Part shown: positions 1 through 11,639 of the stretch, piece after piece | How the letters are laid out: each line of letters starts with the position of its first letter | How positions within the stretch are numbered: position 1 is the first letter of the stretch | Source of the DNA: a virus | Strand: one strand, 5' to 3' | Virus record (IMG/VR): IMGVR_UViG_3300029266_000804 | Location: 1-29,611 of that record | Length of the DNA: 29,611 nucleotides | The notes under the pieces: generated by a model | Told to the model about the DNA's origin: nothing | Seen by the model: only the letters and a program-made list of their open reading frames with translations | The model's database searches: none | Program-made: the position numbers and the translations under genes

Positions 1-1090
1 CACCCATGCCAGTGTTAATCAAATATACATTACATTCATTCGATTCGATTTTCTGCATCAGCAAATCACTATATTCTTTCACAGGTCGCGGCATAAAAGG
101 TGAACCATAACATGGACTGAATAGTGGTTTAATCTCAGTTGCGCCTTTTTCAGTACCAGGCATCTGACTTGTATATCCAGTTTCGAAAAATTTACGAACT
201 GTTTCACCACTAATTTTACTATAGGGTGGAAACACTCCTTTAGCATCCATAGTTAAGAAAAATATATTATCTGGATGATCAAATTTTTGAGGTTTGTGAT
301 ATGCGTTTTCAACACAAGTAATAGGATAACTCAGTCTTGCGTTTGCAACACCTGGATTTTCTACAACTAAGCAATCTTCTAATTTTGCCTTTTCAACAGC
401 ATCGAAGATCGTCTTATGTGTTTCTGGAGTCAGTCCCTCGCTCTTGGCATAGCATCCAGTTTCGATCATTTTGATGCCCTTATCATCCCAATAAACCTCA
501 TCATCACTAATCAACGCATAATCTGGGTCACTACTTAGTGTAGTTTTACCTGTTCCACTTAATCCAAACATCAAATTTGTAGTCGCATCATATGTAAATG
601 CGCTACAATGCATTGGTAGATAATTTTTTCTAGGAAGTTCAAATCCTATGACACCAAAAACTCCTTTCTTGATCTCACCAAGGAAGGTAGTACCTGCTAT
701 TAACATTGTTTTGGTATCAAGATTTACATGAATTTTGGGTTCTGAAACTTCTAGTTCTGTGTTGTGCCAGATCGTCCACTCTGGAACATTATGCCCAAAA
801 CCTTTAGGAAGAACATCAAACATATTTCTAACAAATTGTTCATGCCTTGCATCATTAGTATACACTTGAAATCTAATATTTGCAGATTCAAATTGTAAAG
901 GTTTTCTGTAGATATATCCTGTTATCCCTCTAGGCAACATTTGATCTGCTAATGAAAGATAATCATCCATGTCACCCACTTTACAATATTTTGGTCTCTC
1001 TTTACATAGTTCTGAAGTTGCTTTACCAAAAAAATATTTGTTCTCTGGACTACGCCCAGTAGGATTTGTTGTGATACTAATGTTTGCCAT
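1..1090 (-). CDS. pckA: ATP-type phosphoenolpyruvate carboxykinase (3' end outside window)
   Basis: PEP carboxykinase (ATP) interconverts oxaloacetate + ATP and PEP + CO2 + ADP, the entry step of gluconeogenesis, in the cytosol. I translated 363 codons with no stop; the reading frame leaves the window at the left edge, so the C-terminal third is not visible. Seen: GRSPENKY at 12-19 (substrate Arg13), GEIKKG at 138-143, MHCSA at 160-164 (metal His161), P-loop GLSGTGKTT at 176-184, SDDE at 195-198 and NARLSYPI at 250-257. These match, in order, the active-site blocks of E. coli PckA, including its Lys213, His232, Asp269 and Arg333. The protein is about 70 residues shorter before the P-loop than the 540-residue E. 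coli enzyme. The position of E. coli Tyr207 appears to hold Phe136. The start ATG follows AAGG by 9 bases and lies 5 bases after the preceding small gene, so it is the last visible gene of an operon that also encodes an aldolase. Confidence 0.93.
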   Translation of the reverse strand, partial: MANISITTNPTGRSPENKYFFGKATSELCKERPKYCKVGDMDDYLSLADQMLPRGITGYIYRKPLQFESANIRFQVYTNDARHEQFVRNMFDVLPKGFGHNVPEWTIWHNTELEVSEPKIHVNLDTKTMLIAGTTFLGEIKKGVFGVIGFELPRKNYLPMHCSAFTYDATTNLMFGLSGTGKTTLSSDPDYALISDDEVYWDDKGIKMIETGCYAKSEGLTPETHKTIFDAVEKAKLEDCLVVENPGVANARLSYPITCVENAYHKPQKFDHPDNIFFLTMDAKGVFPPYSKISGETVRKFFETGYTSQMPGTEKGATEIKPLFSPCYGSPFMPRPVKEYSDLLMQKIESNECNVYLINTGMG

Positions 1091-1095
1091 TATCT

Positions 1096-1266
1096 TTAAC
1101 CTTTATTTTTTATATAGTCTAATTCAACAGGTTGATGCAGCGCACTTTGACCGATAGATTGAACAAGTCCAGTTGGATTGCCCAATGAATCACGAATTTG
1201 ATATAGTACAGGTCGTGCTTCAAGTTTCTCTATACGTTTTTCTAAATCTTCGATTTTCTTATTCAC
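1096..1266 (-). CDS. Small coiled-coil protein, unknown function
   Basis: A 56-residue protein not recognised as any family. The N-terminal 17 residues form a charged heptad-like helix (KKIEDLEKRIEKLEA), so it probably oligomerises; the rest is polar. I prefer a GTG start at 1266, which has GGA about 7 bases upstream and overlaps the cupin stop codon by 8 bases. A TTG 12 bases further upstream is in frame and cannot be excluded. Its stop lies 5 bases before the carboxykinase ATG, and its last codons supply the AAAGG used as that gene's ribosome-binding site. It therefore belongs to the same operon and may be translationally coupled to pckA. Confidence 0.6.
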   Translation of the reverse strand: MNKKIEDLEKRIEKLEARPVLYQIRDSLGNPTGLVQSIGQSALHQPVELDYIKNKG

Positions 1267-1609
1267 CAGAATATCCAATAGTTTCTCTCACAATATCATT
1301 GTGATTAAATTCTGCCCAATACAATTCAAATGCAGTACCACTTTCTACACACTCAAATTGATGATATACGCCAGGTTTTACCTTCGTATAATCGCCTGGA
1401 CCCAGAATAGTTTCGTCAACCAAATCGTAATCATTTTGCCAGACGCGAACTTTCATAATGCCTTCTTCGACATAAAATCCATTCCATTTGTATTCGTGAA
1501 GGTGTTTACTACATACACCACCTCTCACCATTTCAATTCTATGAAATTCTAGCGCACCGTTTGCTTCAATCAATTCGGTTTGCCCCCAAACTTTACCTGC
1601 AATCGTCAT
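1259..1609 (-). CDS. Cupin-fold protein (sugar isomerase or epimerase-like)
   Basis: A single-domain cupin of 116 residues. Seen: motif 1 around HLHEYKW (His36, His38) and motif 2 around KPGVYHQFE (Pro79, Gly80, His83), separated by about 40 residues as in small cupins. Three metal-binding histidines are present, but the usual motif 1 glutamate is not at its standard spacing, so metal use is uncertain. Known: small phage cupins of this kind are often annotated as mannose-6-phosphate isomerase-like, but the substrate cannot be read from the sequence. The ATG overlaps the aldolase stop (TAATG), with GGAG 6 bases upstream, so the gene is tightly coupled to the aldolase. It sits between aldolase and carboxykinase, which makes a role in sugar phosphate metabolism plausible but unproven. 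Confidence 0.8.
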   Translation of the reverse strand: MTIAGKVWGQTELIEANGALEFHRIEMVRGGVCSKHLHEYKWNGFYVEEGIMKVRVWQNDYDLVDETILGPGDYTKVKPGVYHQFECVESGTAFELYWAEFNHNDIVRETIGYSGE

Positions 1610-2409
1610 TATTTACTCCATCTACTTGCATCATATATCTTATCTATATTTGATTTAATTCTTGTATCAAAATCTTCAGTAGTTTGCGAATAGAATAGAC
1701 CTTCGCTCAATCCTCTACTGAAACTCGCACTCATGTGACTCGCCTCACTCAATCTCTCACACGCTTCTTTAGTAGAATATCCACCACTAAGACCCACAAT
1801 CTTTTCAACTGAATTGCATTCATACAAATCAGAATAAGTATGATGGTGATTAGGTATGGTCAATTTAAGAATAAGTTGTCCAGAAAAAACTTTGCATCTG
1901 TTATACAATTCTTCATTCAAATACATTTCCATCGCACTTTTTTCAATTGAAGAAATAGGTATTTCTGGTTCTATTATGGGTGTTAAACCAGCATTTGAAA
2001 TTCTAGTTGCTATTTCGAACTGTTGATCAAGAATTGCAGGGATAGCATACATTTCATTAACAATACTTCTCATTTTAGTGCCGACACATCCACTCCCTAG
2101 AGCAAATCTGATCATAGAGTCAACATCAAATTCCTTTAGGAGACCGTCTGGTTCACATCCACTATCAACCTTTAAAATAGCATGAATACCTTTATTGGCA
2201 AGAACTGCAACCATATCTTTTTCAACGGAATCCTTATAAAGAATTGCGTGACTAATCTTATCATTTGTAAAGTGTTTATTCAGTACCATACGCAACCGCA
2301 TACGGTGAACTAAATCCATTTTATTATCTTCAGTATATTCTTGACCATATCGCTCTAATACGCCGCCAGTGCTACCACCAGAATGATCCATTGCTGCTAT
2401 AAATGTCAT
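1609..2409 (-). CDS. Class I fructose-1,6-bisphosphate aldolase
   Basis: Catalyses the reversible joining of dihydroxyacetone phosphate and glyceraldehyde 3-phosphate, through a lysine Schiff base. The 266-residue protein aligns by eye along its length with the bacterial class I aldolase of staphylococci (Fda type). Seen: AAMDHSGGST at 5-14, LKVDSG at 79-84, GTKMRS at 110-115, IIEPEI at 145-150, LILKLTIP at 179-186 with the probable Schiff-base Lys182, then LSGGYS and ASFSRGL. It lacks roughly the first dozen residues of the cellular enzymes but keeps the catalytic core. The start has a strong AGGAG 6 bases upstream and lies 32 bases after the ABC/GNAT gene. In a heterotroph this enzyme and PEP carboxykinase together act in gluconeogenesis. 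The aldolase could also serve glycolysis, so direction is inferred from the carboxykinase. Confidence 0.93.
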   Translation of the reverse strand: MTFIAAMDHSGGSTGGVLERYGQEYTEDNKMDLVHRMRLRMVLNKHFTNDKISHAILYKDSVEKDMVAVLANKGIHAILKVDSGCEPDGLLKEFDVDSMIRFALGSGCVGTKMRSIVNEMYAIPAILDQQFEIATRISNAGLTPIIEPEIPISSIEKSAMEMYLNEELYNRCKVFSGQLILKLTIPNHHHTYSDLYECNSVEKIVGLSGGYSTKEACERLSEASHMSASFSRGLSEGLFYSQTTEDFDTRIKSNIDKIYDASRWSK

Positions 2410-2441: not shown

Positions 2442-3539
2442 TTATTTTAAACCTATGTATTCGTGTGAATAGCATAATCTATCAGCATGTTTTATTAAAT
2501 GCTCAACAGATAACTTAGAATCTTTTCTTCTTTTTACAGAATTATATAATTCTTTTAAATAATCTTTTCTTGTTTTCATATTGTGAGAGGTATTTCTCCA
2601 TTTTTTAGATTGATTTCTATATCCACCTAAACGAATATTTGCCGTTTTGCTATAGTATTTTTTTCCTTCACTCAACATTATTTCGCCAGTTGCTTCAGAC
2701 ATTCTTGGACCAAAACCTAAACCTTGATAATCAGGACATATAACAATCCTATGCTCTCTCCAAGCATTTTTAATGGTTCCAGTTGGCATTGAAATTACGC
2801 TAGAAAATCCGATAGGTCGGTCTTCCCACCATCCAATCCAACATCGCACACCTTTATTGATGTTTCCGCTGAGATAGTGATGGTTGCTGAAATATTTCCA
2901 GACCTTTGTAGAACTTTCTTCAAGAGTGAATTTGATATTAGGTCGCCTTTGACACCCCCTAGTTAAAGTTTCTGTTGCAAGATCATATACCCAATCAGGT
3001 TCTAACCATTCTAATATATCATAATGACACGTAGCCAACACAACATTTTTAACATCAAATTTCTTTACATATCTTCCCATCGCACATGCTAAAGATATTG
3101 CAACTGTCCTATCAACGACTGATGTAAACTCATCTACTACTGCTCCAGACCGCAAGCATCTAGCCATATCCGCTCTATGTTTTTCACCAGTTGATAGAAC
3201 ATGATAAGGTTTTGTCCAAGTTGGTACACTATTAAGACCAACCGCACCCAACATTTTAGCGGCAGTTTTTGCATCTGGAAAATGACTAACGATGGCTTTA
3301 TTTGGATTCCAATCGTAAGTATATTCATTTCCAAACTTTTTTAGCAAAGTGCTTTTTCCTGTTCCAGATGGACCAACAATAACACCAATACCAAAAGAAG
3401 ATTCAACTTCTGGCATATCTGGAACTTTAAATTGAGAGTTCCCATCAAAGTCATAATCAAATATTTTTGATATCTCATCAGTTATATCGTCAAGTTCTAC
3501 TACTGAATTTAAATATTCGGTTTCTCCAAATAAACTCAT
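2442..3539 (-). CDS. ABC-type ATPase fused to GNAT acyltransferase domain
   Basis: A 365-residue two-domain protein. Residues about 50-190 are an ABC ATPase: Walker A GPSGTGKS at 56-63, signature LSTGE at 115-119, Walker B AVVDE at 133-137 and switch His172 (ATCHYD). No membrane segment is visible, so it is not a transporter. Residues about 205-315 look like a GNAT domain, with HHYLSG at 220-225 and the acyl-CoA pyrophosphate loop QGLGFG at 272-277. The C-terminal 45 residues are very basic, suggesting nucleic acid contact. ABC ATPase-acetyltransferase fusions are a recorded architecture of unknown role (COG2401-like). The GNAT enzyme Mom of phage Mu modifies adenine in DNA, and a Dam-type methylase lies just upstream here, so DNA modification is a reasonable inference but not shown. 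The start overlaps a duplicated mini-ORF that supplies the AGGA ribosome site. Confidence 0.82.
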   Translation of the reverse strand: MSLFGETEYLNSVVELDDITDEISKIFDYDFDGNSQFKVPDMPEVESSFGIGVIVGPSGTGKSTLLKKFGNEYTYDWNPNKAIVSHFPDAKTAAKMLGAVGLNSVPTWTKPYHVLSTGEKHRADMARCLRSGAVVDEFTSVVDRTVAISLACAMGRYVKKFDVKNVVLATCHYDILEWLEPDWVYDLATETLTRGCQRRPNIKFTLEESSTKVWKYFSNHHYLSGNINKGVRCWIGWWEDRPIGFSSVISMPTGTIKNAWREHRIVICPDYQGLGFGPRMSEATGEIMLSEGKKYYSKTANIRLGGYRNQSKKWRNTSHNMKTRKDYLKELYNSVKRRKDSKLSVEHLIKHADRLCYSHEYIGLK

Positions 3540-10447: not shown

Positions 10448-10476
10448 ATTATAGCAGATTACAAGACTTATGTCAA
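10448..10476 (-). promoter_or_regulatory. Perfect-consensus sigma70 promoter for hsp20
   Basis: Minus-strand TTGACA (10471-10476), exactly 17 bases, TATAAT (10448-10453), preceded by TGC (extended -10). It overlaps the stop codon region of the DHODH-like gene and gives a leader of about 100 bases before hsp20. Confidence 0.9.
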
Positions 10477-11157
10477 TATATTTTTTAATTTCCATGGTGT
10501 AAAACATACTGTACCTAAACTTACATAATCAGCACCTTGATCGAAATAGTATTTCGCGTCACTTTTATTCGTAACGCCACCACCAGCAATAATAGTGACA
10601 TGAGGGTGCTTTACCTTTATGTAATCTATAATCCTTGTCGTATATGGTTTCAAAATGTTACCGCTTTGACCACCATTCAAAGAATACAGAGTATTGCTTG
10701 CGTGTATCTGATTATAACCAGAATCAACTATTTTGTCAATAAGATTTTCTGAGGCAGTTGGGGGTATTTTACAAATACACCATTCTCTTTTAGTTTGGGG
10801 GAAAATATCAAAACCAGGAAGATTAACTGCGCCGATATCTTTGTCAAGATTTGGGCAACTAATATTAATTTCTACACTTGTGGTGCTTGGTACTACATAA
10901 GACAAACTGATCCAATCATTTTTGTCTATAGCAGCAAGACTCAAAACTTCTGTAGTTTTTGTCCGTTTAAGACCAGTTACAACTCCAGCGTTGCGGAGTC
11001 CAATTTTATTCACCCATCCAGATTTAGTATATCGTAGAGTTTTTAGTACTTGAGGCAGAAGTCCTGGTCTACTCTGGTACGTCCAACTTCCAGTTACACT
11101 AATAGTGTTGGGAAGTTTTATATAATTTCCAAAGGGTGCCGATATAAAATATTTCAT
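10468..11157 (-). CDS. Dihydroorotate dehydrogenase-like flavoenzyme
   Basis: A 229-residue TIM-barrel enzyme similar to DHODH, which oxidises dihydroorotate to orotate in pyrimidine synthesis. Seen: NISCPN at 98-103, matching the class 1 motif with catalytic Cys101; KIPP at 130-133 (substrate or FMN Lys130); HASNTL at 152-157; GGQSG at 162-166; and the phosphate-binding strand IIAGGGV at 189-195. It is much shorter than the usual 310-340 residues, mostly at the N-terminus, so activity or substrate may differ. The start is at 11157, just after the upstream stop; an ATG at 11193 overlaps that gene and has no ribosome site. It ends the late accessory operon, which is odd for a nucleotide synthesis gene. 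Confidence 0.82.
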   Translation of the reverse strand: MKYFISAPFGNYIKLPNTISVTGSWTYQSRPGLLPQVLKTLRYTKSGWVNKIGLRNAGVVTGLKRTKTTEVLSLAAIDKNDWISLSYVVPSTTSVEINISCPNLDKDIGAVNLPGFDIFPQTKREWCICKIPPTASENLIDKIVDSGYNQIHASNTLYSLNGGQSGNILKPYTTRIIDYIKVKHPHVTIIAGGGVTNKSDAKYYFDQGADYVSLGTVCFTPWKLKNILT

Positions 11158-11168
11158 AATGTATATAC

Positions 11169-11639
11169 TCAATTCAAAAAGATTTTGCGCCATTCTTTTT
11201 TATATTCTTCTTCATCAATACTTTTGGTAAAAGATTTTGGGAATTTTTTTATTGCTCTGAGCAATACTCTTATTTTTACATCTGCTTTGATGATAGAAAT
11301 ATTCTGACCACCATTTCTTGCTGCTAACCAACGATGATGACCATCAACAATATAGTTATCGGATGAAACAATTAATGGGTTTGCCTTGTCTATTTTCTTT
11401 AAGATACCCATGATGCTCAGTATCTTACCTAGATTAAAGTCAGATTGAGTCGCACTCAACTTTTTTGCTTTGATCTCACCCTTTTCCATCTTTATACCCA
11501 GACTTGTTAGATAAGTAAGGAGTTCTGCATAATCTTTTGGATGCACTTGGGGCATATCTAATCTTTCGATTTCAAGAGTATCCTTAGACTTAGGAGTGGT
11601 TGCCCTAAATTCTGCTATTACTTGACTATATTTACGCAT
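11169..11639 (-). CDS. ParB/sulfiredoxin-like domain protein with capsid-targeting-like leader
   Basis: A 156-residue protein with a ParB-like nuclease/NTPase core: NPLIVSSDNYIVDGHHRWLA, including the DGHHR motif of the fold. Known: this domain occurs in DNA segregation proteins, nucleases and phage proteins, so the reaction is uncertain. The N-terminus MRKYSQVIAE resembles the T4 internal-protein propeptide MKTYQEFIAE and ends in I-A-E, a gp21 protease consensus. This suggests packaging into the head and injection. It lies 15 bases after the upstream gene in the late accessory operon. Confidence 0.72.
   Translation of the reverse strand: MRKYSQVIAEFRATTPKSKDTLEIERLDMPQVHPKDYAELLTYLTSLGIKMEKGEIKAKKLSATQSDFNLGKILSIMGILKKIDKANPLIVSSDNYIVDGHHRWLAARNGGQNISIIKADVKIRVLLRAIKKFPKSFTKSIDEEEYKKEWRKIFLN

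Follow-up and report, generated by a model that had tools for sequence, protein, structure and literature searches.

The left end of a viral contig, IMG/VR record IMGVR_UViG_3300029266_000804 (positions 1 to 29,611; this whole 29.6 kb stretch of DNA is referred to here as the window), carries four minus-strand genes which, as predicted from the sequence, form one operon. They encode a class I fructose-bisphosphate aldolase (FBA), a small cupin, a small coiled-coil protein and a short ATP-type phosphoenolpyruvate (PEP) carboxykinase (PEPCK), the last of which is cut by the window end so that 363 of its ~405 codons lie inside (Table 1). The aldolase and cupin genes overlap in the sequence TAATG, the GTG start of the coiled-coil gene is located within the 3' end of the cupin gene (GGTGAATAA), and 5 bp separate the coiled-coil gene from the PEPCK gene. 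An AGGAG motif precedes FBA, and a scan for promoters and terminators gave no signal above that of shuffled sequences. Gene content and junctions are as described in the original prediction, made from the letters of the window, which had proposed that aldolase and PEPCK form a gluconeogenic pair.

Table 1. Predicted features of the window and of two related loci (positions refer to the window unless a locus is named)
Feature	Position	Strand	Length	Basis or remark
Class I FBA	1609-2409	minus	266 aa	NF003784, 2IQT, active-site motifs
Small cupin	1259-1609	minus	116 aa	Cupin_2 33.8 bits (cut-off 27.2), AlphaFold2 cupin fold
Small coiled-coil protein, from GTG	1096-1266	minus	~56 aa	conserved in 7 loci
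Coiled-coil protein, alternative TTG start at 1278	1096-1278	minus	60 aa	
Short ATP-type PEPCK, cut by window end	2-1090	minus		PF01293, residues, fold
ABC/AAA-type ATPase part joined to GNAT acetyltransferase part	2442-3539	minus		PHROG 11143
Dihydroorotate-dehydrogenase-like protein	10468-11193	minus	241 aa	PF01180 44 bits (cut-off 27)
Nucleotidyltransferase-phosphomannose isomerase cupin fusion	L147:3740-4510			also in L030, L035, L048, L103, L137
Coiled-coil gene with PurM residues	L004:7715-7927			apparent purM deletion scar

Judged by its genes, the window derives from a T4-like ocean phage. Its major capsid protein is T4-like (PHROG 138, 528 bits) and shares 65% identity with that of Phage C48C1 and 60% with that of Methylophilales phage Melnitz; DNA polymerase, clamp-loader and gp46/47-like genes were also read as T4-like from their sequences. 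Host contamination and mis-assembly were ruled out because these genes are present and because the gene order is repeated across many contigs. The metabolic genes are auxiliary metabolic genes (AMGs) in that they lie within a virus genome, with the T4-like capsid gene in the same window, and have cellular metabolic homologues.

The window PEPCK matches PF01293 at 293.3 bits (gathering score 26.5) and, as far as profiles can place it, is a short variant of this Pfam family and not a TIGR00224 equivalog. At 405 aa the viral protein is ~135 aa shorter than the 540 aa PckA of E. coli; in alignments to the latter the phage PEPCKs lack ~57 residues at the start and a large part of the final ~80. Residues R65, K212, K213, H232, D268, D269, R333, R449 and T455 (E. 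coli PckA numbering) are kept, as is the P-loop 248-256 with K254 and T255; the motifs that mark membership of the family, i.e., the P-loop, the DD of kinase-2, the metal ligands K213/H232/D269, R65 and R333, are thus all present, and the catalytic columns are largely invariant across 49 aligned relatives. Substitutions with respect to E. coli PckA are Y207F, found in nearly all phage PEPCKs, and H271V. The AlphaFold2 model (pLDDT 88.6, pTM 0.89) gave only ATP-PEPCKs as top Foldseek matches, with 6AT3 at E=1.5e-36 and a TM score of 0.83 over the query.

The aldolase is best described as a divergent relative of the PRK05377-type class I FBA and not as a certified equivalog, with 230.4 bits against NF003784 (cut-off 392) over positions 16-295 of the 297 in the profile. 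It matches the S. aureus class I FBA 2IQT at 1e-38 with 98% of the phage protein aligned, and its LKLTIP (with the Schiff-base lysine), GTKMRS, EPE, SGGYS and SFSR motifs align to those of 2IQT. These motifs are retained in 60-66 of 66 phage relatives, with the exception of EPEI (24/66). The dN/dS ratios, which are rough where synonymous sites are near saturation, were low in nearly every comparison of operon genes (PEPCK 0.07-0.14; FBA 0.09-0.22 in pairs >80% identical; mostly 0.07-0.24 for the cupin and the phosphomannomutase described below; 0.05-0.13 for the accompanying cytidylyltransferase), and strong purifying selection on the phage PEPCK is strongly indicated. Locus L073 differs from locus L005, the complete version of the window operon, in that the FBAs are 56% identical at the same operon position and the PEPCKs 85%; because of this disparity FBA may have been exchanged in the L073 lineage with its place in the operon kept.

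According to a profile scan, at least 119 IMG/VR viral contigs carry the short PEPCK; none was detected in a credible isolated-phage record or in a PHROG family. Most INPHARED matches to PEPCK or FBA appear to be bacterial sequence within the record (Salmonella, E. coli, S. aureus), among them the Staphylococcus and Salmonella records MG543995.1, AGRM01000003.1, AFYI01000003.1 and OR844989.1; the exception is an uncultured 636 kb phage with a 524 aa PEPCK of the cellular type. Comparison of 83 PEPCK loci identified five gene contexts, named A through E. Context A, that of the window, has the order FBA-cupin-[purM, metK or coil]-PEPCK-PMM-CytT, where PMM is phosphomannomutase and CytT cytidylyltransferase. 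In context B the order is DNA polymerase-PEPCK-[metK]-PMM-MazG-primase, followed at some distance by cupin and CytT; in context C it is primase-KdsA-PEPCK-KdsB-cupin-PMM-CytT-RecA with variants. Context D combines PEPCK with FBA, glyceraldehyde-3-phosphate dehydrogenase (GAPDH) and a small HAD-like protein in varying order, some loci also having a phosphoribosyl pyrophosphate (PRPP) synthetase, and context E (~18 loci) has PEPCK alone between gp46 and gp45. Searching viral metagenomes for the window order, as had been suggested, recovered it in independent contigs that include L002, L003, L004, L011, L073 and L097.

FBA is present in 30 of the 83 PEPCK loci. Over 18 distinct arrangements the mean PEPCK-FBA gene distance was 5.0, compared with 7.7 when placement within those loci was randomized (permutation, p=0.005, a guide only because the arrangements are partly dependent and the loci are cut), and the controls gp44, DNA polymerase, Hsp20, exonuclease and RecA showed no closeness to PEPCK. 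The pairing of PEPCK and FBA in an operon is more than chance. MetK proximity (p=0.02) rests on two arrangements only; PMM, CytT, KdsA, PRPP synthetase and dihydroorotate dehydrogenase (DHODH) were no closer to PEPCK than chance in the permutations, and their proximity was therefore not used as statistical support. GAPDH accompanies PEPCK in 14/83 loci and occurs in none of 37 FBA-only loci. With the two genes recurring together in many arrangements and GAPDH as a third enzyme, the proposed gluconeogenic pairing has held up. It had been considered that related genomes might show the two genes only singly and in unrelated contexts; generally this is not so, although one large group, gp46-PEPCK-gp45, does lack FBA in the stretch examined.

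A scan of bacterial genomes identified the short PEPCK in five marine alphaproteobacterial genomes (L151, L152, L153, L154 and L156), where it is 64-65% identical to the phage L005 protein. The gene is chromosomal, its neighbors being HprK-, RapZ-, HPr- and electron-transfer-flavoprotein-like by sequence, and it is the only PF01293 match in each of the five genomes. Of the remaining genomes of this genus, four possess a full-length PEPCK only, in different gene surroundings, and three, which may be incomplete, have none. A further 148 genomes sampled from the order all match PF01293; the matches are essentially full-length, and in one genome the match is in two pieces. In congeners that lack the short gene, the genes that flank it elsewhere are present with no PEPCK in between, i.e., the site is empty. 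In the maximum likelihood tree the bacterial copies form a single shallow clade (100/100) that falls inside the phage clade (97/90 and 100/100); a long branch separates the short PEPCKs from every full-length cellular one. Because the bacterial copies are nested among phage copies and the site is empty in congeners, the simplest reading is that the gene moved from phage to bacterium, as the tree and the empty site indicate. The phage FBA had no match in the host genus, in a search without a positive control. This bacterial lineage seems to use the phage-type enzyme as its only PEPCK, which argues that the viral enzyme works. That the phage enzymes might be inactive, a possibility raised at the outset, is opposed by their apparently intact catalytic residues, by the inferred purifying selection and by these sole-PEPCK bacteria. 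On the whole, we think it rather probable that a virus-specific family of minimal PEPCKs powers gluconeogenesis when phages infect marine bacteria, and that it has passed from phage into a marine alphaproteobacterial genus, in which it takes the place of the ancestral full-length enzyme as sole PEPCK.

What lies beyond the left end of the window was read from contig G001 (locus L005), which is 46.3 kb long and 99.96-100% identical to the window over the whole window length. It contains the complete PEPCK of 405 aa, followed by PMM, CytT, a DNA methyltransferase and APRT. The PMM is of the eukaryotic type (PF03332 78.7 bits, cut-off 22.4), aligns to PDB 2I54 (4e-23) and has the DVDGT and GDK..GGND motifs; CytT matches rfaE domain II at 71 bits and glycerol-3-phosphate cytidylyltransferase at 70 bits, both below cut-off. 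Other lineages carry KdsA (12/83 PEPCK loci, often adjacent) and KdsB (9/83), or, as in L087-L089 and L104, have a DegT aminotransferase gene and one for GDP-mannose 4,6-dehydratase (GMD) after PEPCK and FBA. KdsA (NF003543), GAPDH (TIGR01534), MetK, PurM, APRT, PRPP synthetase and GMP reductase each exceed at least one curated NCBIfam cut-off; GMD is above its Pfam and below its NCBIfam cut-off, and KdsB and a UDP-sugar dehydrogenase are above no curated NCBIfam cut-off.

The window cupin had been proposed to be a sugar phosphate isomerase completing the path. Its AlphaFold2 model (pLDDT 86.8) has the cupin fold; the best fold match is KdgF (Z 13.9), and phosphomannose isomerase (PMI) structures 7ZVM/7ZVY follow at Z 12.0-12.5 among many other cupins. 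A PMI identity in particular was not borne out by profile, motif or fold: the L004 homologue reaches 15.2 bits against the type II PMI profile PF01050 (gathering score 23.6), and hhalign to the CpsB C-terminus gave a probability of 15% only. The cupin may plausibly be a sugar-phosphate isomerase or epimerase; its fold is compatible with a PMI but does not single out one cupin family, and the PMI profile and motif were negative. In six related loci CytT, of the rfaE nucleotidyltransferase type, is fused to a type II PMI cupin, and therefore a mannose or fructose link is supported for the PMM/CytT/cupin gene group; the motif of the window cupin differs from that of the PMI domain in these fusions. 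The coiled-coil protein is kept between cupin or purM and PEPCK, and in L004 its gene opens with 13 PurM residues, for which reason purM is suggested to have formerly been part of the L004 operon.

Three gluconeogenic enzymes, PEPCK, GAPDH and FBA, were found in these phages. Searching 2.09 Mb of phage loci with E. coli queries, which would miss very divergent enzymes or those of a different class, gave no enolase, phosphoglycerate kinase (PGK), triose-phosphate isomerase (TPI), GpmA, fructose bisphosphatase (FBPase; Fbp, GlpX) or phosphoglucose isomerase, and no transketolase, transaldolase, aceBA, KdsC or KdsD; the first six, together with transketolase and transaldolase, would therefore have to come from the host. 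The suggestion to look left of the window for further genes of the path led to PMM, CytT, methyltransferase and APRT, and not to transaldolase or FBPase. In the scheme that we propose PEPCK would convert oxaloacetate to PEP, host enolase, phosphoglycerate mutase, PGK, GAPDH (phage-made in some phages) and TPI would carry PEP to triose phosphate, FBA would join the trioses into fructose 1,6-bisphosphate, from which fructose 6-phosphate would be released by host FBPase. In the window lineage the product would most likely first become mannose 6-phosphate, perhaps by way of the cupin, then mannose 1-phosphate through PMM and finally a nucleotide-activated sugar, to be built into a glycan of the virion or of the infected cell; PEP and hexose phosphate could also be used for PRPP and nucleotides. 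PMM and CytT, which follow PEPCK in the window lineage, suggest hexose phosphates and sugar nucleotides as the first destination; in other lineages KdsA/KdsB, or GMD with the DegT aminotransferase, indicate sugar nucleotides by way of Kdo or GDP-mannose sugars, and some loci have genes for PRPP, purine and pyrimidine steps.

A gluconeogenic role is, as a prediction, well supported by gene content and by evolutionary evidence. That the operon serves to build hexose phosphate from organic acids in the infected cell, towards sugar nucleotides, is the reading that we favor with slightly more confidence than doubt; the direction of flux, the function of the cupin and the final product are those parts of it that we infer. 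Several observations weigh against it. PEPCK falls under its NCBIfam cut-offs (TIGR00224 253.9 bits for the cut window copy versus 590), as FBA does under its curated ones. The cupin has HLHEYKWNGF where PMIs have a motif of the QMHHHRAEHW type. PMM and CytT are no nearer to PEPCK across arrangements than chance and occur as a pair without PEPCK in an Acinetobacter phage, the ~18 loci of context E have no companion genes nearby, and both PEPCK and FBA are able to work in the opposite sense, as a carboxylating and a glycolytic enzyme, respectively.

The same enzymes might instead mainly serve ribose phosphate, PRPP and nucleotides, with fructose 6-phosphate and glyceraldehyde 3-phosphate entering the host non-oxidative pentose phosphate pathway; this destination, close to that originally proposed, is a possible one to which we give a distinctly minor weight. 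PRPP synthetase occurs in 7/83 PEPCK loci and purM in 4/83 (within the operon in L002, L003 and L011, next to PEPCK in L106), APRT lies downstream in L005, OMP decarboxylase is found in L007, a DHODH-like gene in several loci and GMP reductase beside FBA in L014-L017, and the purM scar of L004 fits as well. Against these stand the transaldolase and transketolase missing from the search above, the chance-level distance of PRPP synthetase and the sugar-phosphate and nucleotidyltransferase genes that follow PEPCK in the window lineage. More doubtful is that PEP itself is the wanted product, for a PEP-consuming step such as KdsA (Kdo), with FBA a separate addition: the frequency of KdsA and KdsB and the solitary PEPCKs of context E would agree with it, yet KdsA was not found in the window lineage, and the recurrent proximity of PEPCK and FBA and the company of GAPDH would be left unexplained. 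Finally, it is very improbable that PEPCK carboxylates PEP, refilling the TCA cycle and making ATP, with FBA glycolytic, since although both reactions are reversible by established biochemistry and some bacterial PEPCKs are anaplerotic, a gluconeogenic role is what fits the short PEPCK as the only detected ATP-PEPCK in five bacteria, a PPDK/PEP-synthase domain being absent from four of the five incomplete single-cell genomes; the change of Tyr207 to Phe does not settle the direction.

Apart from the operon, the gene just upstream of FBA encodes the ATPase-acetyltransferase protein of Table 1, a match to a PHROG family without known function. Relatives of the DHODH-like protein of the window lie near PEPCK in L007, L095, L134 and L144. 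Loci L057 and L066 (contigs G002 and G015) have what seem to be curli-like repeat proteins and a CHASE2/adenylate-cyclase-like protein, as read from sequence.

Most of the phage carbon genes known so far direct carbon of cyanobacteria to the pentose phosphate pathway. The phages described here, probably of heterotrophic ocean bacteria, encode the entry into gluconeogenesis and up to two more steps, and such genes would enable a host that feeds on small organic acids to produce sugar phosphates when needed. The apparent bacterial use of the short enzyme as sole PEPCK is a natural test that the viral enzyme works and suggests that phages can supply cells with enzymes of central metabolism; if this is true, a central-metabolism enzyme of a cell has been inherited from a virus. 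AMGs as such are already known, and the takeover of a phage PEPCK by a bacterium is apparently an unusual consequence of them.

Compared with E. coli PckA (PF01293; 1AQ2/6AT3), the phage PEPCK shares the fold, P-loop, kinase-2 aspartates, metal ligands and substrate arginines and differs in having lost ~57 residues at the N-terminus and a large part of the ~80 at the C-terminus, in Y207F and H271V and, with respect to cellular PEPCKs in general, in the long branch that sets it apart. The phage FBA has the catalytic motifs of the PRK05377 or S. aureus FdaA type (2IQT) aligned over 98% of its length; unlike that type it is shorter, without the first ~14 residues and with core deletions, and is ~40% identical to the S. 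aureus copies found. In the accessible part of the open-licence literature we found no description of the short PEPCK family, of the operon or of its transfer to a cell. The genes fba and manA have been reported in ocean viromes (Hurwitz 2013; PMC4053976), and like these and the cyanophage genes talC, zwf, gnd and cp12 the present genes would steer central carbon flow, with the difference that the cyanophage genes push the pentose phosphate pathway and ours encode entry into gluconeogenesis from organic acids. Both pckA and ALDO have been named as viral AMGs in trench sediments from KEGG annotation (PMC12448302); these are the same two genes, and the available part of that report does not describe an operon, a short family or transfer to a host. 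A complete marine phage genome combines aceBA with Gmd, WcaG, ManC, NeuA, KdsA and WaaG (PMC5332604), which resembles our phages in joining carbon assimilation to sugar-nucleotide genes, KdsA included, and differs in that the carbon genes of that phage are those of the glyoxylate bypass and those of the present phages are PEPCK, FBA and GAPDH.

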